From the NCBI GenBank assembly GCA_017852795.1, contig JAFMKU010000023.1, positions 1-32,309 on the forward strand: DNA of 32,309 nt, read 5' to 3'. The position numbers were made by a program, and so were the translations under genes. Below, in pieces: positions 532 through 18,978 of this stretch (positions are counted from its first letter, which is position 1; every line of letters starts with the position of its first letter). The stretch comes from Candidatus Neomicrothrix sp. Lineage in GTDB: Bacteria > Actinomycetota > Acidimicrobiia > Acidimicrobiales > Aldehydirespiratoraceae. The notes beneath the pieces were generated by a model. It ran no database searches, was not told the origin of the DNA, and saw only the letters and a program-made list of their open reading frames with translations.

Positions 532-3135
532 TTAGGTCGGGTCGGTTTCGGGTTCGAGCTCAACGACGACCGTAAGGTCACGGGCCGCGTTCGGTTCCGA
601 AGCGCTGACCTGATGGATCACTCCTGCGGCTTTGACATCATCGAGGACAAGGTCCAGCAGGGCGAGTTGTTCGGCGGGTCCCGCGAAGCGAGCATCGGTC
701 ACCGCGGTTCGCAGTTTGCGTTTGGCTTCGGACTTTTCGCGTCGGACGATGGTGAGCGCCTCGGTGGCGATTTCGCAGGCGGCCCGTCCGGTGTGGGCAG
801 CAGGGGACCGGAGCTCGGCGCTATCCGGCCAGCTCTGGGTGTGGATCGAGCTGGGCTGCCACCAACTCCAAGCTTCTTCGGTGACGAACGGCAGGAACGG
901 AGCGAACAACCGTTGGATGGTTGAAAGCGCCAGTCGCAGGGCGTGATGAGCCGACGCGGCGCGGTCGTTGCCGTATTCGCCGTAGGCGCGAGCCTTCACC
1001 AGTTCGACGTAGTTGTCGGTGAACCACCAGAAGAACGCTTCGGTGCGTTCCAGCGAGCGGGCGTAGTCGAAGGCGTCAAACGCGGTGGTGGCCTCATCGA
1101 CGAGATCGGCGAGGCGGTCCAACATCGAACGGTCGAGCGGTTCGGTGATTCGTTGCGGTTCGATGGCTCCCGAGGTGTCGCCGAAGGTCAACACGAATTT
1201 GCTGGCGTTGAGCAGTTTGATGGCGAGTCGACGCCCGATCTTCATCTGGCCTTCGTCGAACGCGGTGTCGGTCCCGGGCCGTCCCGATGATGCCCAGTAG
1301 CGGACGGCGTCGGAGCCGTACTGGTCCAGCAGTTCGGTGGGGACCACCACGTTGCCTTTCGATTTCGACATCTTTTTGCGGTCCGGGTCGAGGATCCAAC
1401 CGGATAGGGCGCAGGTGCGCCACGGGACGGTGTCGGCGTCGAGGTGAGCTCGGACCACGGTCGAAAACAACCAGGTCCGGATGATGTCGTGGGCTTGCGG
1501 CCGCATGTCCATCGGGAACGTGGCGGCGTGAAGCTCCGGGTCGGTGCGCCAGCCGGTGGCGATCTGGGGGCTCAGCGATGATGTCGCCCAGGTGTCCATA
1601 ATGTCGGCTTCGCCAACGAAGCCATTAGCGAGACCCCGCTGCGATTCGTCGTAACCGTCGGGGGCATCGGTCGACGGGTCGATCGGAAGCTGTTGGTCAC
1701 CGGGGAGGATGGGGCGATCCCAGATGGGTTCGCCGTCGGCATCGAGGGGATACCAGAGCGGGATCGGCACCCCGAAGAAGCGCTGGCGGCTGATCAGCCA
1801 GTCGCCGTTGAGCCCTTCAATCCAGGAGGTGTAGCGGCTCTGCATGTAGCTGGGAACCCAGTTCATTTCGTCGCCGCGGGCGATCAACGCTTGTCGGAGG
1901 TCGTCGTCGCGCCCTCCGTTACGGATGTACCACTGGCGAGAGCTGACAATCTCCAGCGGTTTGTCGCCCTTTTCGAAGAACTTCACCGGATGGGTGATCG
2001 GTCGAGGGCCACCGTCGATCTCTTGGGCTTCGGTGAAGATGGCGACGATCTCGGTTTGGGCTTGCGCCGCTCGCAGCCCGGTCAGCCGCTGGTAAGCCGC
2101 CACCCCAGCCGGTTCGGTGATCCAGTCGGGGGTTTCGGCAGCGAACCGGCCGTCGCGTTGGATGACGGTCCGAACTGGCAGATCAAGCTCGCGCCACCAG
2201 GTCACGTCGGTGGTGTCACCAAAGGTGCAGATCATGGCGATGCCCGTTCCCTTTTCGGGGTCGGCAAGCGGATGGGCCAGAACCGGCACCTCAACGCCAA
2301 ACACCGGGGACCGCACCGATGCGCTTTCGAAATAGGGCTGGTACCGCGGGTCGTCGGGGTGGGCGACGAGGGCCACGCAGGACGGCACCAGTTCGGGCCG
2401 AGTGGTGTCGATCCAGATGTCAGGGGTGCCGTTGGTGCCGGCGAACCGCAGCTTGTGGTAGGCGCCGGGAAGTTCACGGTCTTCGAGTTCGGCCTGAGCG
2501 ACCGCGGTTTGGAAGGTCACGTCCCACAGCGACGGGGCTTCGACCTGGTAGGCGTGGCCGGCTCGAAGGTTGTCGAGGAAGGCCAGCTGGCTGATCCGTC
2601 GACAATGGTCGTTGATGGTTTCGTAGGTGCGGGTCCAGTCAACGGAGAGGCCGAGGCGACGGAACAGGCCTTCGAATGCTTTCTCGTCCTCGGCTGCGAG
2701 CTGGATGCAGAGTTCGATGAAGTTGGGGCGGCTGACCGCGAAGGTTCCCCGTTTGTCGATGGCTTTCGGATCGCCGGCGTCTTCAGGGGTGGGCAGCGCC
2801 GGGTCGTAGGGCAGGGACGGGTCGCAGCGGACCCCGAAGTAGTTCTGCACTCGGCGTTCGGTGGGTAGCCCGTTGTCGTCCCAACCCATGGGGTAGAAGA
2901 CGTCGAACCCGCTCATCCGCCGGTAGCGGGCAATGGTGTCGGTGTGGGTGTAGCTGAAGACGTGGCCGACGTGAAGCGATCCGCTCACGGTGGGTGGGGG
3001 AGTGTCGATGGAGAACACCTGGTCTCGGGGTTTGTCTCCGGCGAAGTGGTAGATCCCTGCGGTATCCCATACCGAGTCCCACTTGTCCTCAAGTCCGTCT
3101 AGGTTGGGCTTTTCGGGAATCTGAGGCACGGTCAT
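532..3135 (-). CDS. valS: valine--tRNA ligase, archaeal-type subfamily
   Basis: Cytoplasmic enzyme that attaches valine to tRNA(Val) and edits mischarged threonine. With the start at 3135 (MTVPQIPEKP) it has 867 residues. The class I signature HVGH lies at about residues 55-58 inside PPPTVSGSLHVGHVFSY, KMSKS at about 588-592, and the inserted CP1 editing domain lies between them, followed by an anticodon-binding domain (WWFTDNYVELVKARAY). The PPPTVSG and DDNGLPTER wording matches the subfamily I know from archaea and rickettsiae; the usual bacterial form has PPPNVTG and a C-terminal coiled-coil arm, which is absent here. An in-frame ATG at 3171 would add 12 residues (GPGILGVC) with no family similarity, and neither start has a clear Shine-Dalgarno. 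The methyltransferase gene follows after 3 bp. Confidence 0.96.
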   Translation of the reverse strand: MTVPQIPEKPNLDGLEDKWDSVWDTAGIYHFAGDKPRDQVFSIDTPPPTVSGSLHVGHVFSYTHTDTIARYRRMSGFDVFYPMGWDDNGLPTERRVQNYFGVRCDPSLPYDPALPTPEDAGDPKAIDKRGTFAVSRPNFIELCIQLAAEDEKAFEGLFRRLGLSVDWTRTYETINDHCRRISQLAFLDNLRAGHAYQVEAPSLWDVTFQTAVAQAELEDRELPGAYHKLRFAGTNGTPDIWIDTTRPELVPSCVALVAHPDDPRYQPYFESASVRSPVFGVEVPVLAHPLADPEKGTGIAMICTFGDTTDVTWWRELDLPVRTVIQRDGRFAAETPDWITEPAGVAAYQRLTGLRAAQAQTEIVAIFTEAQEIDGGPRPITHPVKFFEKGDKPLEIVSSRQWYIRNGGRDDDLRQALIARGDEMNWVPSYMQSRYTSWIEGLNGDWLISRQRFFGVPIPLWYPLDADGEPIWDRPILPGDQQLPIDPSTDAPDGYDESQRGLANGFVGEADIMDTWATSSLSPQIATGWRTDPELHAATFPMDMRPQAHDIIRTWLFSTVVRAHLDADTVPWRTCALSGWILDPDRKKMSKSKGNVVVPTELLDQYGSDAVRYWASSGRPGTDTAFDEGQMKIGRRLAIKLLNASKFVLTFGDTSGAIEPQRITEPLDRSMLDRLADLVDEATTAFDAFDYARSLERTEAFFWWFTDNYVELVKARAYGEYGNDRAASAHHALRLALSTIQRLFAPFLPFVTEEAWSWWQPSSIHTQSWPDSAELRSPAAHTGRAACEIATEALTIVRREKSEAKRKLRTAVTDARFAGPAEQLALLDLVLDDVKAAGVIHQVSASEPNAARDLTVVVELEPETDPT

Positions 3136-3203
3136 ACAGACACCGAGGATACCCGGCCCGACCGGGGTCACCGTTCGAGTTGTCAGACGGAGAAACCCCG
3201 CGG

Positions 3204-3232
3204 TTGACTTTCAGTTACCAATCGGTAAGTTG
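3204..3232 (+). promoter_or_regulatory. candidate promoter with dyad operator upstream of the acyl-CoA dehydrogenase
   Basis: TTGACT (3204-3209) is a good -35 match. A dyad TTACC-AATC-GGTAA (3215-3228) sits just downstream, over the spacer and the expected -10, where a bound repressor would block polymerase. The -10 (about 3226-3231, TAAGTT) is weak. Short dyads of this size are typical of TetR-family regulators of fatty-acid genes; the regulator is not in the window. The site also lies between divergent valS and the dehydrogenase. Confidence 0.4.
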
Positions 3233-3301
3233 GAGAAAAGGACCATCCCCCACGGTTTTTGGAACCCACGGACCGAAGAACCCTTGTCGAAGGAGCTTGT
3301 C

Positions 3302-4516
3302 ATGGCCGACTTCTCACTTGAACTCAACGAAGACCAACTCGCACTTCAGAAGTGGATCCACGAGTTTGCCGTTGATGTCATCCGGCCCAACGCTGAGGAG
3401 TGGGATGAGCGCGAAGAGTTCCCGTGGCCGATCGTCCAGCAAGCCGCAGAGATCGGGTTGTACGGATGGGAGTTCAACGCCGAACTCATGATGAACGATC
3501 CCACCGGCATTTCGATGCCGATGGCGATTGAGGAAATCTTTTGGGGCGATGCCGGCATCGGCATGGCCATCATGGGATCGGGTCTTGCGGCGGCCGGTAT
3601 CGGTGCGTCCGGCACCTCCGAGCAGGTGATGGAGTGGGTGCCGCAGTGTTACGGCTCAGCCGATGACATCAAGGTTGGGGCGTTCTGCGCCTCGGAACCC
3701 GACGCCGGATCCGACGTGGGTGGGTACCGAACCTCAGCCCGCTACGACGAGGCCACCGACGAATGGGTGCTCAACGGCACCAAAGCTTGGATCACCAACG
3801 GCGGGATCGCCAACGTCCATGTCGTGGTCGGTGTCGTCGATCCGGCGCTCGGCTCGAAAGGGCACGCCAGTTTCGTGGTTCCACCTGGAACCCCGGGTCT
3901 GAGCCAGGGCCAGAAGTACAAGAAGCACGGCATCCGAGCGAGCCACACCTCTGAAGTGGTCCTCGATGACGTGCGGGTTCCCGGCCGTTGCCTGCTTGGC
4001 GGCAAAGAAAAGCTCGACGAACGTTTGGCCCGAGTGCGTGAAGGCAAGCCCGGCAACGCTCAAGCCGCCATGCAGACCTTCGAAGCGACCCGTCCGGCGG
4101 TCGGTGCGCAGGCCCTCGGGATCGCCCGAGCCGCAACCGAATACGCCACCGAGTACGCCAAAGAGCGTCACGCGTTTGGTCGACCGATCATCATGAACCA
4201 GTCGATCGCGTTCATGCTGGCCGACATGGCAACCGAGGTTGAGGCAACCCGTGCTTTGATCTGGAAAGCGGCGTGGCTCGGGAAGCAACGCAATTTCAAG
4301 AACGCCGAAGGGTCGATGGCCAAGCTCAAAGCGGGCCGGGTTGCCACCTGGGCCACCGAGCGGGCCATTCAGGTCCTCGGCGGCTACGGCTACACCCGGG
4401 AATACCCGGTTGAGCGTTGGCATCGTGATGCCAAGATCCACGACATTTTCGAAGGCACCGAGCAGATCCAGCAGCTCGTGATCAGCCGAGCCATCTCCGG
4501 TATGCGCATCGAGTAG
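3302..4516 (+). CDS. acyl-CoA dehydrogenase
   Basis: FAD-dependent enzyme for the first step of beta-oxidation (acyl-CoA to trans-2-enoyl-CoA, electrons to ETF). It has 404 residues, the usual length. Start ATG 3302 is preferred because GAAGGAG (3289-3295) lies 6 bases before it; a TTG at 3230 in the same frame adds 24 residues unlike the family. The helical N-terminal domain, middle beta domain (GAFCASEPDAGSD, WITNGG) and C-terminal helices with RHAFGRPI and QVLGGYGYTREYPVER are all present. The catalytic base is the glutamate of FEGTEQIQ at about residue 384, the medium-chain-type position. Chain-length preference cannot be read from sequence. It is probably a single-gene transcript; the next gene converges on it after a 10-bp gap. 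Confidence 0.95.
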   Translation: MADFSLELNEDQLALQKWIHEFAVDVIRPNAEEWDEREEFPWPIVQQAAEIGLYGWEFNAELMMNDPTGISMPMAIEEIFWGDAGIGMAIMGSGLAAAGIGASGTSEQVMEWVPQCYGSADDIKVGAFCASEPDAGSDVGGYRTSARYDEATDEWVLNGTKAWITNGGIANVHVVVGVVDPALGSKGHASFVVPPGTPGLSQGQKYKKHGIRASHTSEVVLDDVRVPGRCLLGGKEKLDERLARVREGKPGNAQAAMQTFEATRPAVGAQALGIARAATEYATEYAKERHAFGRPIIMNQSIAFMLADMATEVEATRALIWKAAWLGKQRNFKNAEGSMAKLKAGRVATWATERAIQVLGGYGYTREYPVERWHRDAKIHDIFEGTEQIQQLVISRAISGMRIE

Positions 4517-4526
4517 TGCTCTCCGG

Positions 4527-5780
4527 TTAGGGCCTGAGTTTTTTGCTCCAGGCGCTAAACGAGCGAACCGATCCGTCGTGGTCGGGCACGAGCCACGGCC
4601 ACGGATGGATTTCGGCCGGACCAATGCCTTGGGACCGTTGCACAAAACCCGGTACCGGAGCGTGGGTTACTGCCACGGCCCGACCGGTGAGCACCTCGAC
4701 CGGGTCACCGAGGTAGACCTCGAGGTGCCGAAGTTCGGCCATTTCGGCCAGCGTTTCCAGGAGAAAGATCAACCGCTTGGCGCTCAACTGCAGGCGGGCC
4801 AGCAGAGGTTGGTCGAACACAAAAACCACCGGCAGATCAGGGTGGGCGACCATCGCAGGGTCGCTCGCACCGAGCGATTCTGCGGTGAGCCAGACTGCTT
4901 CCGGGGACTGATAGGTGACGACCTCACGAGGCCCCCGCTGATCGACTTCGGTCGGCCAGTCAACCGGAACCATCGGCTGGTCGTCGGGGTAGTCCTCCAG
5001 TGGACAGGCCGCAGCATGCGGACAACTCCGGCAGAGTTCGGGAGCTCGACGTTGCACTTGATCACGAGCAAACCCGTACTGCCGACTGGAGCCGACCCCC
5101 ACCGTCCACTGCCAACCCAGACGGTTGGCGGCTCGCGAACCGTCGAGCAGATGGGTAAAGAAACGGTCTTCACCGGTCCGCCAGTCGAGTTGGTTGCGCA
5201 CCCCCCAGTCGCTGGCCAACCACATCCGGGCCTGATTGACCAGCCACCCGTCGGTTTCGAGTTCGTCGACTGCGGCGTCTAGGCAGGGAAGCATTCGATC
5301 CCAACCGCTGCCGGGGCGAGACGCCTGCGGATCGTGGCGTAACGGCGAGGCCGTTGCCGAACCCAACCGGGCGTACCAGTGCCGGGCGTATTCCTGCCAG
5401 AGCAGTTCCTGGCGGAACGCTCTGACGTCATCGGAGGGTCCATGCTCAACCGCCGACCAGACCTCCGGCAAGGAAAGCAACCCGTGGCGGATGTAGGGAG
5501 AAAGGCCGGATGCCCGCCGGTCAGCAATCGGCAGTACCTGATTTCTGCCGTCGCGATAGCCGGTCACATCAAACCGGTTCAAGGCTGCGTCGGCTGCGAT
5601 TTGCCCACCGCGAAAGCGGGGCGAGCCAACAACCGGACCCGAATAGAGGCCGTCGAACTGGTCGGCAATGCAGGCTTCGACCGAGGATCGGGTCGCGGTA
5701 GGAAGTTCAAAACGCACCAATGGAACCTGCTTCTGCTCACCAAGCAAACCGGTCTTTCGACACGGCGATGTGGTCTGCAT
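4527..5780 (-). CDS. photolyase/cryptochrome-like flavoprotein with permuted domain order
   Basis: In the 417-residue frame from ATG 5780, the FAD-binding helical domain of photolyases comes first: SPYIRHG (about 94-100), FRQELLWQEY (122-131), WDRMLPCLDAAVDEL...GWLVNQARM (160-185), DGSRAAN and GWQW (213-223). A short linker with three cysteines follows (C250, C253, C259; ELCRSCPHAAACPLEDYP). Residues 288-413 then resemble the Rossmann-like domain that is normally N-terminal: VWLTAESLGASDPAM, VVFVFDQPLL, SAKRLIFLLETL, VYLGDP, ending SFSAWSK where photolyases have FTPFxKxW. No Shine-Dalgarno precedes 5780; GTG 5717 is an alternative start nearer to the conserved sequence. Likely roles are light-dependent DNA repair or blue-light sensing, which sequence alone cannot separate. 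It is divergent from the next gene, 67 bp away. Confidence 0.82.
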   Translation of the reverse strand: MQTTSPCRKTGLLGEQKQVPLVRFELPTATRSSVEACIADQFDGLYSGPVVGSPRFRGGQIAADAALNRFDVTGYRDGRNQVLPIADRRASGLSPYIRHGLLSLPEVWSAVEHGPSDDVRAFRQELLWQEYARHWYARLGSATASPLRHDPQASRPGSGWDRMLPCLDAAVDELETDGWLVNQARMWLASDWGVRNQLDWRTGEDRFFTHLLDGSRAANRLGWQWTVGVGSSRQYGFARDQVQRRAPELCRSCPHAAACPLEDYPDDQPMVPVDWPTEVDQRGPREVVTYQSPEAVWLTAESLGASDPAMVAHPDLPVVFVFDQPLLARLQLSAKRLIFLLETLAEMAELRHLEVYLGDPVEVLTGRAVAVTHAPVPGFVQRSQGIGPAEIHPWPWLVPDHDGSVRSFSAWSKKLRP

Positions 5781-5847: not shown

Positions 5848-7716
5848 ATGGCTGCAACCATGCTGGAAAGCGTGTCGCCAAAGGCCGAAACGATGACCGT
5901 TGCCTCGCTGGCCCGCGACTGGTCGGAGCGGGCGCCGAAACAGGTCGCTATGCGCGAGAAAGATTTCGGCATCTGGCACGAGTACACCTGGGCCAAGACC
6001 TGGGATCTGATCGAAACCGCGGCCCACGGCCTGCTGGCCAGCGGAATTCAGGTCGGTGATCGGGTGGCTATCCATTCCGAGGACCGCCCTGAATGGGTCA
6101 TTCTTGATCTTGCCGCGGTGGCCCTACGAGGTGTTGCTGTAGGGCTCTACCCGACCAACCCGACGGCCGAAGTCGAATACCTGGTGAGCGACTGCAGTCC
6201 CCGGGTGTTCTTTGCCGAAGATCAAGAACAGGCCGACAAGGTGCTGGCCGTGGACCCCACCATCTCGTCGTGCATCGAACGGATCATCTACGTCGAGCCC
6301 CGTGGGTTCGGCGATTACCGAGACCAACGCCTGATCTTCTGGGACGACTTCCTGGCCTTGGGTCGTGCCCACCGCGAAGCCAACCCAGGTGCAGTGGCAG
6401 AACTCATGGCGGCGGCGCAACCCGACGACATCATGACCCTCGTCTACACCTCAGGGACGACCGGTCCGCCCAAGGGCGCCATGTTGACCAACACCAACGC
6501 GGGCTTTGCCATGCAAAAGATCGTCAGCGAACCGGAGCGGTTCCCTGACCGCCGAGTTCCCGGCCCGGACGACCTGATCGTCACCTACCTTCCGCTCTGC
6601 CATGTAGCCGAACGCATCTTCTCCACTTGGACGCTTTGCATCAGTGGCGCCTCGTTGAACTTCGCCGAGTCGATCGACACGGTGACGATCAACCTACGAG
6701 AGATCCAACCGACGGTGTTCTTCGCCGTTCCTCGTATCTGGGAACGGCTCCATGCTTCGGTGTTCATCCGCGGCAACGACGCATCACCGTTTAAGAAGCT
6801 GTTCTTCCGGCTCGGGTTGGCGCTGGCGTCTCGGATCGGGGCGGCCAAGGTCGCGAACGGCGGCGAGCACACCGCCAAAAGTCGTCTGCTGGCCATGATC
6901 GGCGAGCCGCTGGTGTTTCGAGCCATGAGAGAACGACTCGGACTGCGGCGTTGCCGCTATTCGGCCTCGGGTGCTGCCGCGATCGCCCCTGAGGTCCTGC
7001 AGTTTTTCATGGGTATCGGTGTTCCGGTCTTTGAGTTGTACGGCATGACCGAAAACTCAGCGGTAGCGACCTGCAACATGGCCGGCCGTCTCAAACTCGG
7101 AACGGTCGGTGAGCCCTATGCCGGTATCGGGTTGCGCCTCGACCCGGAAAACAACGAGATCCAAACCAAGCACGATGGGGTGTTCAAGGGTTACTGGAAC
7201 AAGCCCGAACAGACAGCTGAGACGTTCACGGAAGACGGCTGGTTAATGACGGGCGACGTCGGCGAATGGGTCGATGGCACCCACATCAAGATCGTTGACC
7301 GGATCAAACACATCATCATCACCTCCGGCGGGAAGAACATCTCGCCGTCGGAAATTGAGAACTCGCTGAAGACCTCGGTGTTTGTGAAAGAAGCGATGGT
7401 GGTCGGCGACGGCCGAAAGTTCCTGTCGGCGTTGATCGGTATCGAGTTGGAAACGGTGGGGAACTGGGCCCTACGTAACAACATCCCGTACACGACCTAC
7501 CGTGACCTTTCCGAAAAGCCTGAAGTGATCGAGTTAGTACAAAGCGTGGTCAACGAGACCAACGAGAAGTTCGCTCGGGTGGAAAACATCAGAGAATTCC
7601 GGCTGCTTCCAAAGGAACTTGACCACGAAGATGGCGAACTCACCGCAACTCAGAAGATCAAGCGAAGCTCAATGATGGACATGTTTGGCGAACTCGTGGA
7701 GTCGATGTACGCATGA
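5848..7716 (+). CDS. AMP-dependent acyl-CoA synthetase (FadD15-like)
   Basis: Converts a carboxylic acid, ATP and CoA to acyl-CoA, AMP and pyrophosphate. It has 622 residues, typical of the long-chain FadD15/FACL group. The nucleotide-binding loop YTSGTTGPPKGAMLTN begins at residue 200; YGMTENSAVATCNM and the hinge motif GWLMTGDVGEWVDGTHIKIVDRIKHII are intact, and the C-terminal lid domain is complete. Start ATG 5848 follows a purine-rich stretch (GGGGGGAT, then GGGA). The stop codon overlaps the permease gene (ATGA), so it is the first gene of the transporter operon. That placement suggests it activates the acid the transporter brings in. The substrate (fatty or aromatic acid) is not determined. 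Confidence 0.92.
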   Translation: MAATMLESVSPKAETMTVASLARDWSERAPKQVAMREKDFGIWHEYTWAKTWDLIETAAHGLLASGIQVGDRVAIHSEDRPEWVILDLAAVALRGVAVGLYPTNPTAEVEYLVSDCSPRVFFAEDQEQADKVLAVDPTISSCIERIIYVEPRGFGDYRDQRLIFWDDFLALGRAHREANPGAVAELMAAAQPDDIMTLVYTSGTTGPPKGAMLTNTNAGFAMQKIVSEPERFPDRRVPGPDDLIVTYLPLCHVAERIFSTWTLCISGASLNFAESIDTVTINLREIQPTVFFAVPRIWERLHASVFIRGNDASPFKKLFFRLGLALASRIGAAKVANGGEHTAKSRLLAMIGEPLVFRAMRERLGLRRCRYSASGAAAIAPEVLQFFMGIGVPVFELYGMTENSAVATCNMAGRLKLGTVGEPYAGIGLRLDPENNEIQTKHDGVFKGYWNKPEQTAETFTEDGWLMTGDVGEWVDGTHIKIVDRIKHIIITSGGKNISPSEIENSLKTSVFVKEAMVVGDGRKFLSALIGIELETVGNWALRNNIPYTTYRDLSEKPEVIELVQSVVNETNEKFARVENIREFRLLPKELDHEDGELTATQKIKRSSMMDMFGELVESMYA

Positions 7717-8717
7717 TGACTGCCCTCCAACTCGCCCAGACCGGTGCGGGCGCAACCTTCCTACAGACCTTGGTCAAGGCGTTGGCGCTCGGTTCGGTGT
7801 ACGTGCTGATCGCGCTCGGGTTTGTCATCGTGTTCAAAGCCACGCAGGTGCTCAACTTTGCCGCCGGTGCGATTGCCATGGCTGGTGCCATGTTCATGTC
7901 GATCTTGATCAGCGACGGTGGGATCCCGCTGTTGCCTTTCGACAACCCGTTGGCTCCCGCCGAGGGAGAAGCAGCCAGTATCCCGATGTGGGGCGTGCAT
8001 GTGCTGATCGCCTTGGTGTTCGCGGCGTTGTTCGGGTTGGTGTTGGAGCGGGTGGCGATCCGCCCCATGGTCGGGCAACCGCTGTTTGCCATGGCGGTGG
8101 TCACGCTGGGCATTGAGGTTGCGGTTCGGCCGTTCAACTTGGATGCAACCGCTCTGGAGAGCCGCAACCTTGGCGTGCCTTGGAAAGCCGAGACGTGGGA
8201 ATTGGCCGGTGCCATCGTCCCGAAGTCGTATGTGGCAGCCGTGGTGCTGGCCGCTATTGGCAGTACCGCCGTCCTGCTGTTTTTCCGGTCTCGGCTGGGG
8301 GTCGCGATGCGAGCCGTGGCCTTTGACCAAGAGGCCGCGATGGCTCAGGGGATCAACGTCGGCCGGGTGTTTGCCATCGCCTGGGGGCTCGGCGCCGCGC
8401 TCGCCGCGCTGGGAGCGATTACCTACGGCATGGCTCCGTTTCCACCTGGTGGCAACGTGAGTCAGGAAATCCATCCCATTCTGGCGTTCCGAGTGTTGCC
8501 GGTAATCGTGCTCGGCGGGCTTGATTCGATCGCCGGTGCGATCGTCGGTGGGGTGATGATCGCTTCAGCCGAAATCTTCGCGGGGCAGTACCTCTCGCAA
8601 TACAACGACACCTTGGGCTCGGGGTATTCCACGATCGTTCCTTATCTGGTGATGCTGGTGGTGCTGGTGGTGCGACCGTTCGGCATTTTCGGAACTCCCG
8701 AGATCAGGAGGGTGTGA
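7713..8717 (+). CDS. Liv-type ABC transporter permease, LivH-like
   Basis: Inner-membrane subunit of a HAAT-family (branched-chain amino acid type) importer, 334 residues with about eight hydrophobic segments. The N-terminal ALALGSVYVLIALGFVIVFKATQVLNFAAGAIAMAGA is characteristic of LivH. The cytoplasmic coupling loop contains EAAMAQGINVGRVFAIAWG from about residue 207, which docks on the ATPases. The start overlaps the synthetase stop by 4 bp; a second ATG follows at once at 7716. The family also carries aromatic acids, amides and fatty-acid-like substrates, so the Liv name does not fix the substrate here. Confidence 0.93.
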   Translation: MMTALQLAQTGAGATFLQTLVKALALGSVYVLIALGFVIVFKATQVLNFAAGAIAMAGAMFMSILISDGGIPLLPFDNPLAPAEGEAASIPMWGVHVLIALVFAALFGLVLERVAIRPMVGQPLFAMAVVTLGIEVAVRPFNLDATALESRNLGVPWKAETWELAGAIVPKSYVAAVVLAAIGSTAVLLFFRSRLGVAMRAVAFDQEAAMAQGINVGRVFAIAWGLGAALAALGAITYGMAPFPPGGNVSQEIHPILAFRVLPVIVLGGLDSIAGAIVGGVMIASAEIFAGQYLSQYNDTLGSGYSTIVPYLVMLVVLVVRPFGIFGTPEIRRV

Positions 8718-8718
8718 C

Positions 8719-10023
8719 ATGGCCTTCAACCGTCCCATGCTCCGGACCTCCTATCAGGAGGACACGGCGATCTTCCCGACGTATTTCCAGAAGGGCGCTG
8801 CGTCGTTGTTCTTCGTGGTGCTGATTCTTCTGGGACTTGGCGCCCCGATCGTGTCGAGCATTCCGTCGTTTTTCCTCGGGTCAACATGGATCAACCCGAT
8901 CACCAACATGCTGCCGCTGGCCATCGCGGCGTTGGGCATCAACATTCTGGTTGGGGTCACCGGGCAGGTGTCGCTCGGACACGCGTTCTTCATGGGGGTC
9001 GGGGCCTATACCGCGGTTGCGCTTGGCGGCAACGGTGATGAATGGCAGGCCTGCGTTCCGTTCCATCAAGAACTCGGCCTGCTCGAACAAGAAGGCCAAT
9101 GCGGTTTGGGCCTTCCGATCTGGATCTGGTTGCCGTTCTCCGGGATCGGGGCGGCACTAGCTGGGATCATCGTTGCCCCGGCGGCGGTGAAAGTGCGCGG
9201 GCTGTACCTCGCGATCGTCACGGTCGGTCTGGTGTTCATCGGGCTACATCTCGGCCGGATGTTGCCGTCCATCGCCGGGGACTTCGAGTCGGGACGGAAG
9301 TGGCCAAAGCTTGATTTCCGGCTCTGGAAGGAAGAAACCCCGCTGGTCTCGTTCACCGAGGACGGTAAATGGTTTGGCTTGATCCACTTAACTGAGGAAC
9401 AAAAGCAGTACTTCCTGCTGATCATGATCCTCGGCGCGTTCATGCTTTTTGCCAAGAATCTTGTGCGCAGCCGGACCGGTCGAGCCCTCCAAGCCATTCG
9501 CGACCGCGACATCGCCGCTGAGGTGATGGGGGTCCCCGAGTTCAACTACAAGCGACTCGGGTTCGCCATCAGCTCGTTCTATGCCGGGATCGGCGGGGCG
9601 CTTTGGGCCAGCTACAACGGCCGTATGGCCCCGGTCAACTGGTCGCTGTTCCTGTCGGTTGACTTCATCGCCATCCTGCTGATCGGTGGGGCGGGCACGG
9701 TCGCCGGAACGATTTTGGGAACGATTTTCGTTGAGCTCACTCCAGAAGTGGTGAAGACATTTACTGAGTGGCTGGGCGAACAGACCGCATCAAACGGGCC
9801 GGTGGCCTGGCTGGCCAACATTTTGCTCACCGAAGGATCGGGCGACTTTGGTCCGATCAGCACTGGCACGGTGGCCCTTGGCTGGCCCATGAGCGTGTTC
9901 TACTGGAACCTCGTGATTTACGGGGTTCTGATTATCGCCTTCCTGATCTTTGAGCCGATGGGGTTGTATGGGATCTGGGTGAAGGTCAGGAACTATTGGA
10001 AACGTTGGCCGTTCAGCTATTAG
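8719..10023 (+). CDS. Liv-type ABC transporter permease, LivM-like
   Basis: Second membrane subunit, 434 residues and partner of the LivH-like protein. AGGAGG (8706-8711), inside the end of the previous gene, is placed 7 bases before ATG 8719. Features include MLPLAIAALGINILVGVTGQVSLGHAFFMGVGAYTA early on, the coupling-loop sequence RDRDIAAEVMGVPEFNYKRLGFAISSF, and GAGTVAGTILGTIFVELTPEV near the end. It is longer than E. coli-type LivM core regions because of a hydrophilic insert (about residues 110-135 and 190-225) between hydrophobic segments; the insert is seen, its role is unknown. One base separates it from the upstream stop codon. Confidence 0.92.
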   Translation: MAFNRPMLRTSYQEDTAIFPTYFQKGAASLFFVVLILLGLGAPIVSSIPSFFLGSTWINPITNMLPLAIAALGINILVGVTGQVSLGHAFFMGVGAYTAVALGGNGDEWQACVPFHQELGLLEQEGQCGLGLPIWIWLPFSGIGAALAGIIVAPAAVKVRGLYLAIVTVGLVFIGLHLGRMLPSIAGDFESGRKWPKLDFRLWKEETPLVSFTEDGKWFGLIHLTEEQKQYFLLIMILGAFMLFAKNLVRSRTGRALQAIRDRDIAAEVMGVPEFNYKRLGFAISSFYAGIGGALWASYNGRMAPVNWSLFLSVDFIAILLIGGAGTVAGTILGTIFVELTPEVVKTFTEWLGEQTASNGPVAWLANILLTEGSGDFGPISTGTVALGWPMSVFYWNLVIYGVLIIAFLIFEPMGLYGIWVKVRNYWKRWPFSY

Positions 10024-10122
10024 GACGGCCTCAGAAGATCTGGCGTCTGGATTACCAGCGCTAGAAGTGCCCCAGATCGGACCTTCGGTCGGGGGAAGAA
10101 GCACACAAACTGGAGGAACCAC

Positions 10123-11547
10123 GTGCGACGATTGAAGCTACTGCTAGCAGTGCTCTTTGCACTGTCGATGTTCGCTGCGAGCTGCGGCGATGATGAAACA
10201 GATACCGCCGACGACAGCTCGTCGGACTCGGGTGATTCCGGTGACTCGGGTGACTCGGGTGATTCGGGTGATTCGGGTGATTCCGGCGACGACGTGGTCT
10301 TTGACTACGGCGTAGACGGAGATTCCAAGGTCATCCGAGTCGGCTTGAACGCTGACCTTTCGGGTCCGTTTGCTTCGCTGGTGACCGAAATTGTCGCGGC
10401 GCAGGAAGTGTACTGGGAGGCCTTTAACGAAGCCGGTGGTTACAAAGGCTGGACGGTTGAACCGGTAGTGATTGACTCCGGCTACGCAACCGATGTCGGC
10501 ATCCAGAACTATCAGGAATTCGCGCAGGAAAGCGATGAAGGCGTGCTGATGATCACCGAGAACACCGGTTCTCCGATCACCGCAGCAATCGCGGAAGATG
10601 CCGCCGATGACAACATGCTCGTCATCCCGCTGAGCTGGGCGTCGCTATGGCCCGATCCTGAGTTCGGAGCCACCATTCTTGAAAAGCAGACCACGTACTG
10701 CATCGAGTCGATGAACGGTGTTTCCTGGCTGGCCGAACAGGTGGAAGCAGACGGTGACACGCCGAAGCTGGCCATCATCGGTCGCCCCGGCGAATACGGT
10801 GAGGATGGCTCGGCTGGTGCCTCGTTGGCTGCCGAAGCGCTCGGTATTGAGATCGTCTACGACGGAACCAGTGCCGTGGCTGGCGACGACCGCACCGCGG
10901 TGGTTGCTGAGCTGGTTGGATCTGGGGCCAACATTGTCTGGGTGACGTTGACCCCCGGCGAGCTGGCCGATGTCTTCGGTAACGCAGTCGGTCAGGGCCT
11001 CGATGCTTACTGGTCAGGCAACTCGCCGTCGTTCAACTACCTGGTGCATCTGGGTGGCGACCTCGCCGAGCAGTTCGACCAGTACTACTGGCAGTCCTAC
11101 TACCAGGCCCCGTGGGCGACCCCCGGCATCGAAAAGATGGAGACCCTGGTGGAGGAAATGACCACCCGTCGTCCGGATCTCAACATTTCCGACGTCTACA
11201 CCACTGGTTGGATCGAAGGCATCATGACCGAAACCTTGATCCGTGCCGCGATCGACGGTGGTGACCTGACCCGAGCCAACATGGTGGCGCTGGCCACCTC
11301 GGGCCTTGAGGTCGACTTCGGTGGCTTGTCGGCGCCGCAAAGCTGGCCGAACGATTACAACTCGGCGGTTGTGCGTTCGAGCTGGATCTACGACGTGGAC
11401 GCGGAAGCCTTCAACATCATCCCGATGTCGGAATACTCCGCGGACAACACCGGCTCCACCGGCATGATCCCGGTTGAGCAGGATTACGTTGCGGACTTTG
11501 TTGCCGAGGCAACCTTCGACGGTCCCTGCATCGAGCCGGCTTCCTAG
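10123..11547 (+). CDS. periplasmic-binding-type lipoprotein of the Liv transporter, LivK-like
   Basis: Extracytoplasmic substrate-binding protein of 474 residues. GTG 10123 is preceded by GGAGG (10112-10116). A signal peptide MRRLKLLLAVLFALSMFAAS ends at Cys21 in a relaxed lipobox (AAS-C), so it should be lipid-anchored. A Ser/Gly/Asp-rich linker with six Gly-Asp-Ser repeats (about residues 37-54) separates the anchor from the type 1 periplasmic-binding fold (IRVGLNADLSGPFASLV onward). The ligand pocket cannot be assigned by eye. It lies 99 bp after the permease gene and is followed by a strong hairpin (11568-11608) that may raise its transcript level over the ATPase genes. Confidence 0.92.
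   Translation: MRRLKLLLAVLFALSMFAASCGDDETDTADDSSSDSGDSGDSGDSGDSGDSGDSGDDVVFDYGVDGDSKVIRVGLNADLSGPFASLVTEIVAAQEVYWEAFNEAGGYKGWTVEPVVIDSGYATDVGIQNYQEFAQESDEGVLMITENTGSPITAAIAEDAADDNMLVIPLSWASLWPDPEFGATILEKQTTYCIESMNGVSWLAEQVEADGDTPKLAIIGRPGEYGEDGSAGASLAAEALGIEIVYDGTSAVAGDDRTAVVAELVGSGANIVWVTLTPGELADVFGNAVGQGLDAYWSGNSPSFNYLVHLGGDLAEQFDQYYWQSYYQAPWATPGIEKMETLVEEMTTRRPDLNISDVYTTGWIEGIMTETLIRAAIDGGDLTRANMVALATSGLEVDFGGLSAPQSWPNDYNSAVVRSSWIYDVDAEAFNIIPMSEYSADNTGSTGMIPVEQDYVADFVAEATFDGPCIEPAS
10231..10290 (+). repeat. 9-bp tandem repeat coding for Gly-Asp-Ser units
   Basis: Six full copies of GGTGAYTCS (10231-10284) and a partial seventh (GGCGAC, 10285-10290) lie in frame in the lipoprotein linker. 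Each copy adds Gly-Asp-Ser. The copies are nearly identical at third positions, so the array is prone to slippage, but a change by whole units keeps the frame and only alters linker length. Confidence 0.9.
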
Positions 11548-11567
11548 TCGGTTAGGTATTCACTGTT

Positions 11568-11608
11568 GACCGTCTGGGCCGGGGTGTATTGCTCCGGTCC
11601 AGACGGTC
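11568..11608 (+). terminator. strong intra-operon hairpin (attenuator or mRNA-stabilising element)
   Basis: A 15-bp stem is formed by GACCGTCTGGGCCGG and CCGGTCCAGACGGTC with an 11-nt loop; one G-U wobble is the only imperfection. It starts 21 bp after the binding-protein stop codon. No run of T follows, so it is not a standard intrinsic terminator. Partial termination or 3'-end protection of the upstream message would give more binding protein than ATPase, a common need in ABC operons (inference). Confidence 0.65.
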
Positions 11609-11672
11609 GGCGGGTGCCGCCTTGGGGTGGCATGTTGCATAGTCTTGAAGTCATTGTTTTGGAGGTCGGGCC

Positions 11673-12458
11673 GTGCTCGAAATCGCCAACTTAGAAGTCG
11701 TCTACAACGAAGTCATCTTGGTTCTGCGCGGCCTGTCACTGGAAGTCCCCGACGGGAAGATCGTGGCGCTGCTGGGATCGAACGGGGCGGGAAAGACGAC
11801 CACGGCGCGGGCTATCACCGGCCTGCTTGACGTGCACGAAGGCAAGGCCACCAAAGGATCGGTCACCTGGAAAGGTGAGGAGATATCTGAACGGATCCCT
11901 GCCCACATCGTCCAAGCTGGAATTGCCCAGGTGATGGAAGGTCGGCGGATTTTCGCCGAGTTGACCGTGGACGAAAACCTCTCCTGCGGGGCGTTCACGA
12001 ACCGGTCCAACATGAGCGCCAACTACGACCGGGTGATGGAGTTGTTCCCCCGGTTGAAGGAACGCAACAAGCAGGTCGCCGGCTACCTCTCGGGTGGCGA
12101 GCAACAGATGTTGGCTATCGGCCGGGCCTTGATGGCCGAGCCGGAACTGCTCATTCTTGACGAGCCATCGTTGGGTCTCGCCCCGATGCTCATCGAACAG
12201 ATCCGCAACATCATCGTGGACATCAACAAACAAGGGGTCAGCGTTTTGCTCATCGAGCAGAACGCAATGATGGCGCTTTCGATCGCAGATTTTGGTTACG
12301 TCATGGAGTCGGGAAAGGTCGTGATGGATGGGCCGGCCCAGAAACTCCTCAACGACGAAGACGTGCAGGAGTTCTATCTCGGCCTGCATGCCGAAGGGGA
12401 ACGGAAATCGTTCCGTGATGTCAAGCACTACAAGCGCCGAAAGCGCTGGTTGTCCTAG
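11673..12458 (+). CDS. Liv-type ABC transporter ATPase, LivF-like
   Basis: One of two ATPases driving the importer, 261 residues. GTG 11673 follows GGAGGT (11661-11666). Walker A GSNGAGKTT is at residues 35-43, signature LSGGEQQ from 139, Walker B LLILDEPSLGLAP just after, and the switch histidine position reads LLIEQN as is usual in LivF. The C-terminal tail HAEGERKSFRDVKHYKRRKRWLS goes beyond the core LivF end; as far as I recall, such basic tails occur in Liv ATPases encoded with acyl-CoA synthetases. It is followed after 11 bp by the LivG-like gene. Confidence 0.93.
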   Translation: MLEIANLEVVYNEVILVLRGLSLEVPDGKIVALLGSNGAGKTTTARAITGLLDVHEGKATKGSVTWKGEEISERIPAHIVQAGIAQVMEGRRIFAELTVDENLSCGAFTNRSNMSANYDRVMELFPRLKERNKQVAGYLSGGEQQMLAIGRALMAEPELLILDEPSLGLAPMLIEQIRNIIVDINKQGVSVLLIEQNAMMALSIADFGYVMESGKVVMDGPAQKLLNDEDVQEFYLGLHAEGERKSFRDVKHYKRRKRWLS

Positions 12459-12469
12459 GAGGATCCGAC

Positions 12470-13258
12470 ATGGCTGAATCGATTCTCGAGGTGGAAGGCA
12501 TCACCCTGCGCTTTGGTGGCGTCACCGCGATCCACAACGTGAGCTTTCAGGTCAACGAAGGCGAGCTGTATTCGATCATCGGCCCCAACGGGGCGGGAAA
12601 GACGTCGATTTTCAACACCATTTCGCAGGTGTACCGCCCGCAGGAAGGTGAGATTCGCTGGCGGGGAAACTCGATCATGGGGGAGATGCCCGACGTGGTG
12701 GCCAACCTTGGCATCGCACGCACCTTCCAGAACATCGAGTTGTTTCCGCAGATGACCGTGGTCGAGAACCTGCTGCTGGGCCGACACATCCGGATGAAGA
12801 ACAACTGGCTGTCAGGAATGCTCTGGACCCCGAAGGCTCGCCGGGAGGAGATGGAGAACCGGGAACGGGTCGAGGACATCATTGACTTCCTGGAGATCCC
12901 TGAATGGCGCAACCATCCGGTCGCGCTTTTGCCCTATGGCATTCAGAAACTGGTCGAGTTGGGTCGGGCGTTAGCGATGGAGCCCGAGTTGTTGCTGCTT
13001 GACGAACCGGTCGCCGGGATGAACCTTGAAGAGACCGAAGACATGGCCCGCTTCATTCTTGATATCCGACGTGAGCTTGGTATCGCCATGATCATGGTTG
13101 AGCACGACATGGGTCTGGTGATGGACATCGCCGACCGGATCATGGTGTTGGACTTTGGGGAAAAGATCGCCGAAGGAACCCCCGAAGAAGTCCAGCGCAA
13201 CCCGGACGTGATCGCGGCCTATTTGGGCAGCGGAGACCTGCACATCGGCGAAGCGTAG
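12470..13258 (+). CDS. Liv-type ABC transporter ATPase, LivG-like
   Basis: Second ATPase, 262 residues. ATG 12470 is preceded by AGGAGG in the 11-bp gap. Walker A GPNGAGKTS is at residues 38-46. The signature reads LPYGIQK rather than LSGGQ, which is normal for LivG. Walker B is LLLLDEPVAGM, and the switch region MIMVEHDMGLVMDIADRIMVLDFG is complete. It closes the synthetase-permease-permease-binding protein-ATPase-ATPase operon, so all parts of a working importer are present. Confidence 0.93.
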   Translation: MAESILEVEGITLRFGGVTAIHNVSFQVNEGELYSIIGPNGAGKTSIFNTISQVYRPQEGEIRWRGNSIMGEMPDVVANLGIARTFQNIELFPQMTVVENLLLGRHIRMKNNWLSGMLWTPKARREEMENRERVEDIIDFLEIPEWRNHPVALLPYGIQKLVELGRALAMEPELLLLDEPVAGMNLEETEDMARFILDIRRELGIAMIMVEHDMGLVMDIADRIMVLDFGEKIAEGTPEEVQRNPDVIAAYLGSGDLHIGEA

Positions 13259-13411: not shown

Positions 13412-15430
13412 GTGGCGCGCAGCGTTGAAAGCTTTCTCAATGGCAGGTGGCAGAGCGGGACCGACGGGCGCCCGGTTCGCAGTGCGGTCAACGGGCGGGT
13501 CGTAGCCGAAGTTTCGGCTCAAGGGCTCGATCAGGCTGCGGCCCGCAGCTACGCCATCACCACCGGCGGTGGCGCCCTTCGAGCGTTGACGTTCCACCAA
13601 CGAGCGGCCATCCTCCGCAACCTCGGCAAAGCGCTCCTCGCCGAAACCGACGAGCTCTACGCGCTGAGCTGCGAAACCGGTGCCACCGCTGCCGACTCGG
13701 CTATCGACATCGACGGTGGGGCAGGGGCGCTGCTTAGCTACGCCGCGATGGGGCGCAAAGAACTACCCAACCGCACGGTCTGGCCCGATGGTGACCCGAT
13801 TTCGCTAAGCCGGGATGGTCGGTTCGTTGCTCAGCACCTCAACGTGTCTCGGCTTGGCGTGGCGTTGCAGATCAACGCCTTTAACTTTCCGTGTTGGGGG
13901 ATGCTGGAAAAGTTCGCTCCCGCCTTTCTGGCCGGCGTTCCGACCATCGTCAAACCGGCCACACCAACCGCGTATCTCACCGAGGCAATGGTCCGGCTAA
14001 TCGACCGCACCGGCCTCGTCCCTGACGGCGCCCTCCAGATGATCGCCGGAGACATCACTGCGCTGCTCGACGTGCTCGACGAACAAGACTCGATTTCCTT
14101 TACCGGGTCGGCGGCCACCGCCCGCCAGTTACGGTCCAACCCGGCGGTCGTCGACCGGGGCACAAGGTTCACCGCCGAAGCTGATTCGCTCAACGCCGCA
14201 GTGTTGTTGCCATCGGCCGGCAACGACGGACCGACCTTCGAACTGTTCATCGAAACCGTGGCGTCAGAACTGCGGGTCAAGGCCGGGCAGAAATGCACCG
14301 CCATTCGACGGATCATCGTGCCCGCCTCGGCGTGCTCTGCGGTCGAAGAAGCGTTGGTTGAACGACTCACCACCTTTCGGATCGGTGACCCGGCCGACCC
14401 CGCCACCGAAATGGGACCGTTGGTCGGGTTGGAGCAGCGAACGGCTCTTCAGCAGGCCATCGAGCAGATTGGCGCCACGGTGGTGCACGAGACCACCCCG
14501 TTCGGTGACGTCGATGTGGAGCATGGTGCGTTCGTGTCACCGGTGCTGCTTCGAGCCGAAACCCCAGCCGAAAGTGCGGCCCACCAGATCGAACCGTTCG
14601 GTCCGGTCGCGACGCTGATGGCTTATGACACGCTCACCGATGCCGTGGATCTGGTGGCCCGGGGGCGTGGCAGCCTGGTGACGTCGGTGGTCGGACCCGA
14701 CCTCACCGAGGCAGCCGATCTGACGCTGGGGCTCGCCCCGTACCACGGTCGCCTCCACGTGGTGGACGCCACATCAGGTCCATCGTCAACCGGACACGGA
14801 TCACCGGTTCCTCAACTGGTTCACGGTGGACCGGGCCGGGCCGGTGGCGGCGAAGAACTCGGAGGTATGCGGAGCCTGCTGACCCACATGCAGCGAACCG
14901 CGGTGCAAGGGTCGCCGGACCTGCTTACCGCAGTGACCGGACGATGGTTTGACGGGGCACGACGCCAAGAACGAGGTCATCCGTTCACTTTCCACTTTGA
15001 AGACCTCGCAGTCGGAGATTCTCTCCAAACCGAGTCGCGCCGGATCACCATCGAAGACATCGAACGGTTCGCTGAGCTCACCGGTGACACTTTCTACGCC
15101 CACATGGATGAGCAGGCAGCCGCGGCGAGTCCCATCTTCTCGGGGCGGGTCGCCCACGGTTATTTCGTGCTTTCGGCGGCAGCCGGATTGTTTGTCTGGC
15201 CCGACCCCGGTCCGGTACTTGCCAACTACGGCCTGGACAATCTGCGGTTCGCTACCCCCACCTATCCGGGGGCCGAGATCCGGGTCGTGTTGACCTGCAA
15301 AGAGAAGTCGCTGCGCCCCGACGCCGGGTATGGCGAGGTGCGCTGGGACACCAAAGTGCTCGACCAGAACGACAACCTACTGGCCGCCTACGACGTGCTG
15401 ACCATGGTGGCCACCCGGGAGGGAAACTGA
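13412..15430 (+). CDS. paaZ: PaaZ: bifunctional oxepin-CoA hydrolase / semialdehyde dehydrogenase
   Basis: Opens the oxepin-CoA ring (C-terminal hydratase) and oxidises the resulting aldehyde with NADP (N-terminal ALDH). It has 672 residues, close to the E. coli enzyme. In the ALDH domain the catalytic cysteine in GQKC is residue 295 and the glutamate in FTAEADSLN is residue 256, the same numbers I recall for E. coli PaaZ. The MaoC-type hydratase domain begins about residue 525; its Asp/His pair in [10 protein letters not shown] is D559 and H564. Both halves therefore look active. Start GTG 13412 has only a weak purine stretch before it. It is first in the operon and overlaps paaA by 1 bp. 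Confidence 0.95.
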
Positions 15431-16359
15431 TGACCATCCACGCCCAACAACGGTTCGATTCGCTTATCGAAGCCGACGAACGTATCGAACCCGACGATTG
15501 GATGCCCGAAGAGTATCGACAGACGTTGGTCCGTCAGATCGCCCAGCACGCCCACAGCGAAATTATTGGGATGCAGCCGGAAGGAGCATGGATCAGCCGA
15601 GCCCCGTCGCTGCATCGCAAAGCGATCCTTATCGCCAAAGTGCAGGACGAGGCTGGGCACGGCCTGTACCTCTACGGTGCGGCTGAGAGCCTTGGCACCA
15701 CCCGCGCCGAACTGCTGGATCGGTTACATACTCGGCGCCAGAAGTACTCCAGCATCTTCAATTACCCGACGCCGACCTGGGCCGATGTCGGAGCGATCGG
15801 GTGGCTGGTGGATGGAGCCGCGATCGCCAACCAGGTGCCACTCTGCCGCTGCTCGTTTGGACCGTACGGGCGGGCGATGGTCAGAATCTGCAAAGAAGAA
15901 AGTTTCCATCAACGTCAAGGGTTCCAGATCCTGCTGCGCCTCACCGAAGGCACCGCGGAGCAAAAGCAGATGGCTCAGGAGGCGTTGAACCGCTGGTGGT
16001 GGCCGAGCGTGATGATGTTCGGGCCGCCCGACAGCGAATCGGTCCACAACGCTCGGAACATGGCGTGGGGGATCAAACGCTTCACCAACGACGAACTCCG
16101 GCAGGGGTTCGTCGACATGACCGTTCCTCAGGCTGAACTGTTGGGGCTCACCATCCCCGATCCGGAACTGCGCTGGAACGACGAACGGGGCCACTACGAC
16201 TTCGGGGAACCCGACTGGGAAGAATTCGCTCGCATGGTGCGTGGCGAAGGAGACCTCCCCGAGCAACGGCTTCGGGTGCGGCGAGAAGCCCACGAAAACG
16301 GGGCATGGGTTCGAGAAGCCGCCGCGGCCTACGCGGCCCGTCAACGGCAGGCAGCATGA
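15430..16359 (+). CDS. paaA: PaaA: 1,2-phenylacetyl-CoA epoxidase, catalytic subunit
   Basis: Di-iron oxygenase subunit that epoxidises the phenylacetyl-CoA ring. It has 309 residues, the normal size. Iron-ligand motifs are visible: E44 in [12 protein letters not shown]74-x2-H77 in [13 protein letters not shown], and E157-x2-H160 in [11 protein letters not shown]. The ATG overlaps the paaZ stop by one base, indicating coupled translation, and the end overlaps paaB by 4 bp. It should form the PaaABC core complex with the next two products. Confidence 0.97.
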
Positions 16360-16640
16360 ACGCCGACTGGCCCCGCTGGGAAGTGTTTCTACGGGCCCGC
16401 CGAGGGCTGAGCCACACCCATGTCGGTTCGGTCCATGCTGCGGACGGGGAAACCGCGCTGCAAGCCGGACGGGACCTGTTCACTCGACGCCAAGAAGGGA
16501 TCAGCCTGTGGGTGGTGCCTTCCGAACAGGTCGTGGCTTCCGACCCCGATGACCAGGATTCGTTGTTTGAACCGGCCGATGACAAAAGCTTTCGGTTCCC
16601 GACCAGTTTCGAACTTCCGAGCGAAGTGGACCAGATGTGA
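16356..16640 (+). CDS. paaB: PaaB: phenylacetyl-CoA epoxidase subunit B
   Basis: Small subunit of 94 residues, essential for epoxidase activity; it bridges the PaaAC heterodimers. The sequence [30 protein letters not shown] and the end [16 protein letters not shown] are typical. The start is the ATG at 16356 that overlaps the paaA stop (ATGA). A GTG-type extension back to 16305 in the same frame would lie wholly inside paaA and is not supported. The stop overlaps the paaC start by 4 bp. Confidence 0.95.
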
Positions 16641-17392
16641 ACACCGTCGCGGACCCGCTTCTCGCTCACGTACTCCGCCACGGGGATCGGGCGTTGGTGC
16701 TTTCCCAACGGCTCGGGCAGTGGATCACGCATGCTCCGGAACTCGAAGAAGACATGGCGCTGGCCAACATCAGCCTTGACCTTCTCGGGCAGGCCCGCCA
16801 CCTCTACACCTACGCCGGCGAGCTCGAAGGGCAAGGCCACGACGAAGACCATTTCGCCTATTGGCGGACCAGCACAGAGTTTCTCAACCCGCTGCTGGTC
16901 GAACAGCCCAACGGCGATTTCGCCCACACCATGATCCGTCAGGTCCTCCATGACCACGCGGCCTTGCTCTACTGGCAGTCGATGACCACCAGTCGTGACC
17001 AGACGTTGGCCGCGTTAGCGGTCCGGGCCCGCAACGAAACCGAGTTTCATCTCCGCCACTGTCGAGGTTGGGTGGTTCGGCTCGGTGACGGAACCGACGA
17101 AAGCCACCGTCGCGCCCAAGCCGGGCTCGACGCGCTCTGGCCTTACGCCGAAGAGCTGATCACCGCCCCCGCCGACGACGCAGCGCTGCGGTCTGACGGG
17201 CTGATCGGAGATGACATCGCCGATGCCTGGCGCGCCGACGTGGCGGCGACCATGGCCGAAGCAACCCTGACCCTCCCGGTGGGGGTCACGGCCCAGTCCG
17301 GTGGTTGGACCGGTCACCACAGTGAGCACCTCGAAGGGCTCCTCCAGGAACTTCAAGAAGTGGCAAGCGCCTTCCCGGGGGCCAAATGGTAG
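16637..17392 (+). CDS. paaC: PaaC: phenylacetyl-CoA epoxidase structural subunit
   Basis: Ferritin-like partner of PaaA without its own active di-iron site, 251 residues. Typical features are LGDRALVLSQRL-like opening (DRALVLSQRLGQWITHAPELEEDMALANISLDLLGQARHLY), EDHFAYWR, and RNETEFHLRHCRGWVVRLGDGT with E and H residues in family positions. Start GTG 16637 overlaps paaB (GTGA). The 3' end overlaps paaD by 7 bp. Confidence 0.96.
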   Translation: MNTVADPLLAHVLRHGDRALVLSQRLGQWITHAPELEEDMALANISLDLLGQARHLYTYAGELEGQGHDEDHFAYWRTSTEFLNPLLVEQPNGDFAHTMIRQVLHDHAALLYWQSMTTSRDQTLAALAVRARNETEFHLRHCRGWVVRLGDGTDESHRRAQAGLDALWPYAEELITAPADDAALRSDGLIGDDIADAWRADVAATMAEATLTLPVGVTAQSGGWTGHHSEHLEGLLQELQEVASAFPGAKW

Positions 17393-17859
17393 AGGAGCTG
17401 TTGTCGGCGGTGAAGGCGGTACCGGATCCGGAACTGCCGCATGTCACCATTGGCGACCTCGGCATGGTGCGTCGGGTAGAACTCGAAGGGGACCACGCGG
17501 CGGTGGTGATCGCACCGACGTTTCTTGGATGCCCAGCGACCGAACAGATACGTGCCGATGTCGAAGACGTGGTGCGCGGCGTCGGTTTCGTGGCGGTCGT
17601 TGATTTCGAAATGGCACCGGCCTGGTCGACCGATGACATCACCGAGGCCGGTCGGGCCAAACTCGCCGCAGCCGGCATTGCCCCCCCGGCGATGGTTGGC
17701 GATGGCCCCGTACCCATCGACCTGCCCGTCGCCTGCCCCCACTGTGGTTCTCGCCAAACCCGGCTGGTGGCAGGTTTTGGTGCCACTGCCTGCAAGGCGC
17801 TGCATCACTGTCACGGCTGTCGGCAGCCCTTCGAGGCCTTCAAGGAACTGCGCCGATGA
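17386..17859 (+). CDS. paaD: PaaD: MIP18-family assembly protein for the epoxidase
   Basis: Protein of 157 residues, thought to help iron-sulfur or iron-site maturation of the PaaABCE system. The N-terminal DUF59/MIP18 domain contains VPDPELPHVTIGDLGMVRRVE and TFLGCPATEQI, whose cysteine is the conserved one. The C-terminal zinc-ribbon-like part has CPHC and a second cluster HHCHGC, as in E. coli PaaD. Start ATG 17386 lies inside the paaC end and the stop overlaps paaE by 4 bp, so it is tightly coupled. Confidence 0.95.
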   Translation: MVEELLSAVKAVPDPELPHVTIGDLGMVRRVELEGDHAAVVIAPTFLGCPATEQIRADVEDVVRGVGFVAVVDFEMAPAWSTDDITEAGRAKLAAAGIAPPAMVGDGPVPIDLPVACPHCGSRQTRLVAGFGATACKALHHCHGCRQPFEAFKELRR

Positions 17860-18923: not shown

Positions 18924-18978
18924 CCCTGACCCAAGAAACATGGAGCGGCCAAGACCGTGATGAGGGAAGGAACCTGCG

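Follow-up and report, generated by a model that had tools for sequence, protein, structure and literature searches.

Light-driven DNA repair is studied with photolyases as the model, and a single domain order is shared by nearly all members examined so far. A 'reverse domain order' was described for the split Phr4/Phr5 and the fused Phr6 of marine Synechococcus and Cyanobium (Haney et al., 2022, PMC9426592), and in the same study the cysteines C169/C254/C257/C263 of Phr4 were assigned to an Fe-S cluster. The architecture of the family analyzed here is already described, in these cyanobacteria, and the protein encoded in the window (the whole stretch of DNA that was analyzed, 32,309 nucleotides) is a well-supported actinobacterial member of this little-studied family and not a new kind of protein. 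Like Phr4/Phr5/Phr6 it has the FAD domain first and the antenna domain second, and the spacing of the cysteines is 84/3/6 in its family versus 85/3/6 in Phr4 of strain RS9916. It differs from Phr4/Phr5 and Phr6 in being actinobacterial and a single chain; the likeness was judged from the published description and not from sequence identity. With a probability of about 80% the gene is read, from its sequence and a structural model, as coding for a reversed-order Fe-S photolyase with a putative repair function. As far as shown here, and within the open-access literature, what is new is a broad branch of single-chain proteins in actinobacteria, a second branch in Deinococcus that includes one split form, and an active site of the CPD type; a search of that literature for photolyases together with 'circular permutation' yielded no title on the subject. 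The reversed order in combination with a probable Fe-S cluster offers a test of which antenna placement is needed to feed the flavin, and of whether such a cluster has a structural role instead of marking (6-4) repair.

The photolyase gene is located on the minus strand and stands alone; the plus-strand genes on either side, at 3230-4516 and 5848-7716, were judged by eye from their translations to be acyl-CoA dehydrogenase-like and AMP-ligase-like, respectively. The open reading frame, which runs from 5780 to 4527 and has 417 codons counted from the first ATG, was present as the first-pass annotation had given it, but translation probably starts later. Because the N-termini of the relatives align at residues 21-23 of this frame, where the window has a GTG (5717), this GTG is a more likely start than position 5780. 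The product would then have 396 amino acids (4527-5717), with a start shared with homologues in many genomes, and the remaining part of the longer frame (5718-5780), which is absent from the homologues, is probably untranslated. In the following, the numbering of the 396-residue mature form is used, unless stated otherwise; the addition of 21 gives the numbering of the 417-codon frame.

The N-terminal half contains the FAD-binding catalytic domain of photolyases (residues 31-240; 4998-5627, minus strand). The profile PF03441 matched residues 164-235 of the 417-residue frame (E 2e-12), and a phmmer search of the PDB retrieved 1TEZ/1OWL with an E-value of 2e-17 over residues 58-230 in the same numbering. 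Using VIA-align, residues 1-247 of an AlphaFold2 (AF2) model matched photolyases, and the top match was PhrB (5kcm; Z 17.2, rmsd 2.9, 241 residues). The domain is followed by a linker (residues 241-270; 4908-4997, minus strand), which is weakly conserved in the family alignment A1, and by a C-terminal antenna-type Rossmann domain (residues 271-396; 4530-4907, minus strand), which was assigned by the beta-alpha pattern of the model, VIA-align, and hhalign.

The first-pass annotation had proposed that the FAD domain precedes the antenna domain, and with Pfam profiles one half of this order could be recovered: PF03441 matched, and PF00875 did not match the window protein even at an E-value of 10. 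Among 62 relatives PF00875 matched just three, with a best E-value of 0.04. Because this profile is nearly blind to these proteins, the assignment of the antenna rests on profile and structure comparisons. In four genomes (G567, G460, G499, G480) the family profile A1 matched ordinary photolyases twice and in inverse order, with positions 273-362 upstream and positions 35-212 downstream within a single open frame. When the C-terminal domain was compared pairwise with canonical antennas of sister genomes by hhalign, the E-value was 3e-5 over 72 columns. Like all such values for this domain and antennas, it is meaningful only relative to its controls, and five column shuffles and a reversed profile gave 0.03-0.56. 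In the Deinococcus relative PF03441 was found at 102-218, followed by PF00875 at 300-395 with an E-value of 7e-4, which falls short of the curated Pfam threshold. For its C-terminus the E-value was 9e-9 against canonical antennas (134 columns) and 9e-19 against the C-terminus of the window family. By these comparisons the Deinococcus relatives, in which the C-terminal antenna appears more conventional, bridge the window family to canonical antennas.

The structural model led to the same assignment. It had a pLDDT of 95.8 and a pTM of 0.93, and strands and helices alternate over residues 274-371; when the C-terminal domain was modelled alone, the pLDDT was 85.7. The 23 best VIA-align matches of the isolated domain were all photolyases or cryptochromes, with Z-scores of up to 10.4, and in most of the matched chains the alignment begins within the first residues. 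Foldseek by itself gave an E-value of 0.05 for the best photolyase, and the ranking by VIA-align was clearer. The Rossmann fold that had been postulated for residues 288-413 of the longer frame was thus borne out by the beta-alpha pattern and the antenna matches, and the proposed domain order by the double matches of A1, the Deinococcus bridge, the model, and the structural matches of each half. The order typical of class I CPD photolyases, with PF00875 N-terminal of PF03441, is reversed in the window protein. The first-pass annotation took this for a true circular permutation, in which the antenna would pack on the FAD domain as it does in ordinary photolyases; this may be the case, but the swapped order could also have resulted from gene fission and subsequent re-fusion, and split forms do exist. 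A chain of Trypanosoma brucei mitoribosome assembly intermediates (7pub_Ff/7pua_Ff) was observed to match the FAD half (Z 15.2) as well as the isolated antenna half (Z 8.5).

The reversed gene is widely distributed. Full-length copies or large parts of it were found in about 60 of 296 genomes of a class sample, and 20 of 296 genomes of a phylum sample carried it. The hosts include many metagenome-assembled genomes of Acidimicrobiia. The single-chain form is also present in isolates, among them Klenkia terrae, K. taihuensis, K. brasiliensis, Pseudonocardia endophytica, Phycicoccus flavus, and Svornostia abyssi, which make this form experimentally testable. Every full-length relative in the actinobacterial branch had the same domain order, which settled a point that the first-pass annotation had left to the comparison of homologues. 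A second branch of reversed-order photolyases was found on Deinococcus plasmids. On a plasmid of Deinococcus sp. QL22 (L176:1995-3283) the protein is encoded by two overlapping genes, one for an FAD part of 257 amino acids with four cysteines and one for an antenna part of 173 amino acids, which parallels Phr4/Phr5 of the cyanobacterial Synechococcus. No relative of the reversed-order photolyase was found in the viral collection. Phage matches and most plasmid matches were rejected as reversed-order relatives, as they cover the FAD domain only.

In a tree of FAD domains the actinobacterial reversed proteins formed a single clade (100/99), and separate clades were obtained for class I photolyases (100/100), PhrB-like proteins (100/100), and alphaproteobacterial NewPHL-like proteins (100/99). 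The tree left the branching among the groups, including Deinococcus, unsettled, and long branches were flagged by the program. A topology in which the actinobacterial and Deinococcus proteins were held together was not rejected (p-AU 0.41), and a single origin of the swap is neither supported nor rejected.

The first-pass annotation had noticed a C250-x2-C253-x5-C259 motif (417-residue numbering) and a possible Fe-S site. The motif was found as stated, and a fourth invariant cysteine, C166, had been overlooked. The four residues are Cys145 (C166; 5283-5285), Cys229 (C250; 5031-5033), Cys232 (C253; 5022-5024), and Cys238 (C259; 5004-5006), all encoded on the minus strand, and they represent putative ligands 1-4 of a 4Fe-4S cluster. 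They were invariant in every row of two overlapping alignments (A1 and A2; 29 and 62 rows). When hhalign was used for a comparison with the PhrB-like protein that this genome encodes (L192; motifs MACV and HCRNC), C145, C229, and C232 fell on the corresponding cysteines. The column of C238 remained unaligned, a shorter loop preceding it, and this cysteine is followed by a P, as in the ACPF motif of PhrB-like proteins. The invariance and the alignment support the suspected Fe-S site. The PhrB mutants C350S, C438S, and C441S were insoluble or not expressed (PMC4619345), and therefore the cluster in PhrB is probably structural. In the window protein, too, the four invariant cysteines most likely serve as ligands of a structural [4Fe-4S] cluster.

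The PhrB-like (6-4) photolyases (FeS-BCP; PF04244) thus resemble the window protein in the cysteines, three of the four being aligned, and they include the protein whose structure matched the FAD half best (5kcm). In contrast to the window protein, which has the reversed order and Asn/Met in the active site, the PhrB-like proteins have the canonical order, an N-terminal DPRP domain, His366/Leu370, and a clade of their own. The DPRP profile PF04244 did not match the window protein at an E-value of 10, and was present elsewhere in the same genome. Class I CPD photolyases (1OWL, 1TEZ) are the closest solved structures by sequence and share the CPD contacts, but they have the opposite order, lack such Fe-S cysteines, and their FAD domain extends further at its C-terminal end. 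The Phr7-type (NewPHL) proteins are single-strand CPD photolyases (Emmerich et al., 2020, as cited in PMC9426592). They also have an N-terminal FAD domain, but, as described there, they are devoid of Fe-S cysteines and have a short atypical C-terminal 'Z-domain', in contrast to the four invariant cysteines of the window family. A view of the NewPHL C-terminal domain as a degenerate swapped antenna was unsupported (best E 7e-4 over 34 columns, for C-termini of alphaproteobacterial proteins taken for that type).

The type of lesion was addressed by comparison of the active sites. In the phmmer alignment E104/W107/N161/M165/W204 correspond to 1OWL E283/W286/N349/M353/W392, and all are invariant or nearly so. 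We take the latter residues to be CPD-contacting, according to the residue roles in the 1TEZ complex. Glu104 (5406-5408, minus strand) is the equivalent of the CPD-binding Glu283. Asn161 (5235-5237) and Met165 (5223-5225), on the same strand, are equivalent to N349 and M353 in the phmmer alignment and fell on the columns of PhrB His366 and Leu370 in the hhalign alignment with the PhrB-like protein, the PhrB numbering being transferred via the HHIxRLM motif. The PhrB variants H366N and H366N/L370M showed no (6-4) repair (PMC4619345). Because Asn and Met replace His366 and Leu370 and the CPD contacts are conserved, the lesion is more likely to be a CPD than a (6-4) photoproduct, and specificity for CPDs is regarded as probable from the sequence. 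Several observations do not fit this reading easily. Three FAD-binding positions of 1OWL, R287, D382, and W280, are occupied by Q, S, and F in the reversed-order family, which also lacks the third Trp of the triad (W314). The details of how the flavin is bound and photoreduced may therefore not be the same.

The proposed mechanism can be outlined as follows. The N-terminal helical domain would bind FAD and the UV lesion, and its four cysteines would hold the structural cluster. The Rossmann domain, C-terminal in this chain, would serve as the antenna and would probably bind a light-harvesting cofactor. Light energy would be passed from the antenna to reduced FAD, which would donate an electron to the lesion. 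Of the two lesion types, a cyclobutane pyrimidine dimer is the more likely substrate.

Two other photolyases are encoded in the host genome, a canonical class I enzyme (C54) and a PhrB-like one that has the His and all four cysteines (C93), and that the reversed enzyme is a third photolyase beside these two counts against the favored reading. A family with small genomes of about 1 Mb (f29/g73, n=18) has the reversed gene in 16 of the 18 genomes and a PF00875 match in three. A weak third PF03441 match, to a protein of about 490-500 amino acids, was present in six genomes, including the three with PF00875; in one genome (L189) this protein is class II-like by eye. In 10 of the 18 genomes just the PhrB-like protein and the reversed enzyme were found, the genomes being 84-94% complete and single absences therefore uncertain. 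As nothing besides a PhrB-like protein and no PF00875 match was found there, the reversed enzyme is the best CPD candidate in these ten.

The rival explanations differ in how much of this evidence they accommodate. That the gene is an artefact, a frameshift, a misassembly, or a chance similarity of residues 288-413 to antennas, would agree with the failure of PF00875 on the window protein and with the absence of PDB matches to a sequence profile built from the C-terminal domain. This is hardly conceivable, because collinear single open reading frames are present in dozens of genomes, which also excludes the joining of two partial genes considered by the first-pass annotation, and because column shuffles fail, the Deinococcus proteins form a bridge, and the model and structural matches agree. 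A reversed-order enzyme that is a (6-4) photolyase, as guessed for Phr4/Phr5/Phr6 from their cysteines and a UV-C phenotype (PMC9426592), would explain the Fe-S cysteines in common with the PhrB-type (6-4) enzymes and the phr4 mutant of RS9916, which was sensitive to UV-C and not to UV-B (PMC9426592). This is improbable in view of the replacement of the essential His366 and Leu370, of the PhrB-like protein that the host genome already has, and of the ten small genomes that combine a PhrB-like protein with the reversed enzyme.

It is also conceivable, though rather unlikely, that the protein is a light sensor or a single-strand-specific CPD photolyase akin in role to NewPHL/Phr7 (and DASH) and does not perform general double-strand repair. 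The coexisting class I photolyase would fit such a role, and so would the placement of Phr4/6 nearest to Phr7 (PMC9426592). The UV-C survival that E. coli gained from phr4/phr5 was similar in the light and in the dark (PMC9426592), which points in the same direction and counts against a light-driven repair enzyme. The invariant lesion-contact residues nevertheless argue for catalysis, a strand preference is not readable from the sequence, and the FAD-domain tree left a link to the NewPHL-like proteins unsettled. With repair of CPDs as the preferred reading, it is tempting to speculate that a widespread lineage of inverted-order Fe-S CPD photolyases exists in Actinomycetota, Deinococcus, and cyanobacteria, which would be distinct from the class I and the PhrB type. 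Fe-S cysteines would then not imply (6-4) repair, and some actinobacteria with streamlined genomes might depend on this enzyme as their main photolyase for CPDs; this broader view is put forward tentatively.

Some further observations were made at the loci. The PhrB-like photolyases of four f29 genomes (L193, L177, L178, L182) are devoid of the Fe-S cysteine motif, and the reversed ones keep all four cysteines. In small-genome relatives (L050-L057) the reversed gene has constant neighbors, which include a helicase-like gene that appears RecG-like when its motif is judged by eye, and no rhodopsin gene was found beside the reversed gene. A plasmid of Persicobacter sp. JZB09 (L172) encodes an FAD-domain-first protein without the cysteine motif (1758-3059), the C-terminal domain of which did not match antenna profiles, and a canonical-order photolyase-like frame (3052-4524) that overlaps its gene by 8 bases. 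In the window itself, genes for a branched-chain amino acid-type ABC transporter (7713-13258) precede a cluster that resembles a phenylacetate degradation (paa) operon (13412-20256), both recognized by eye only.
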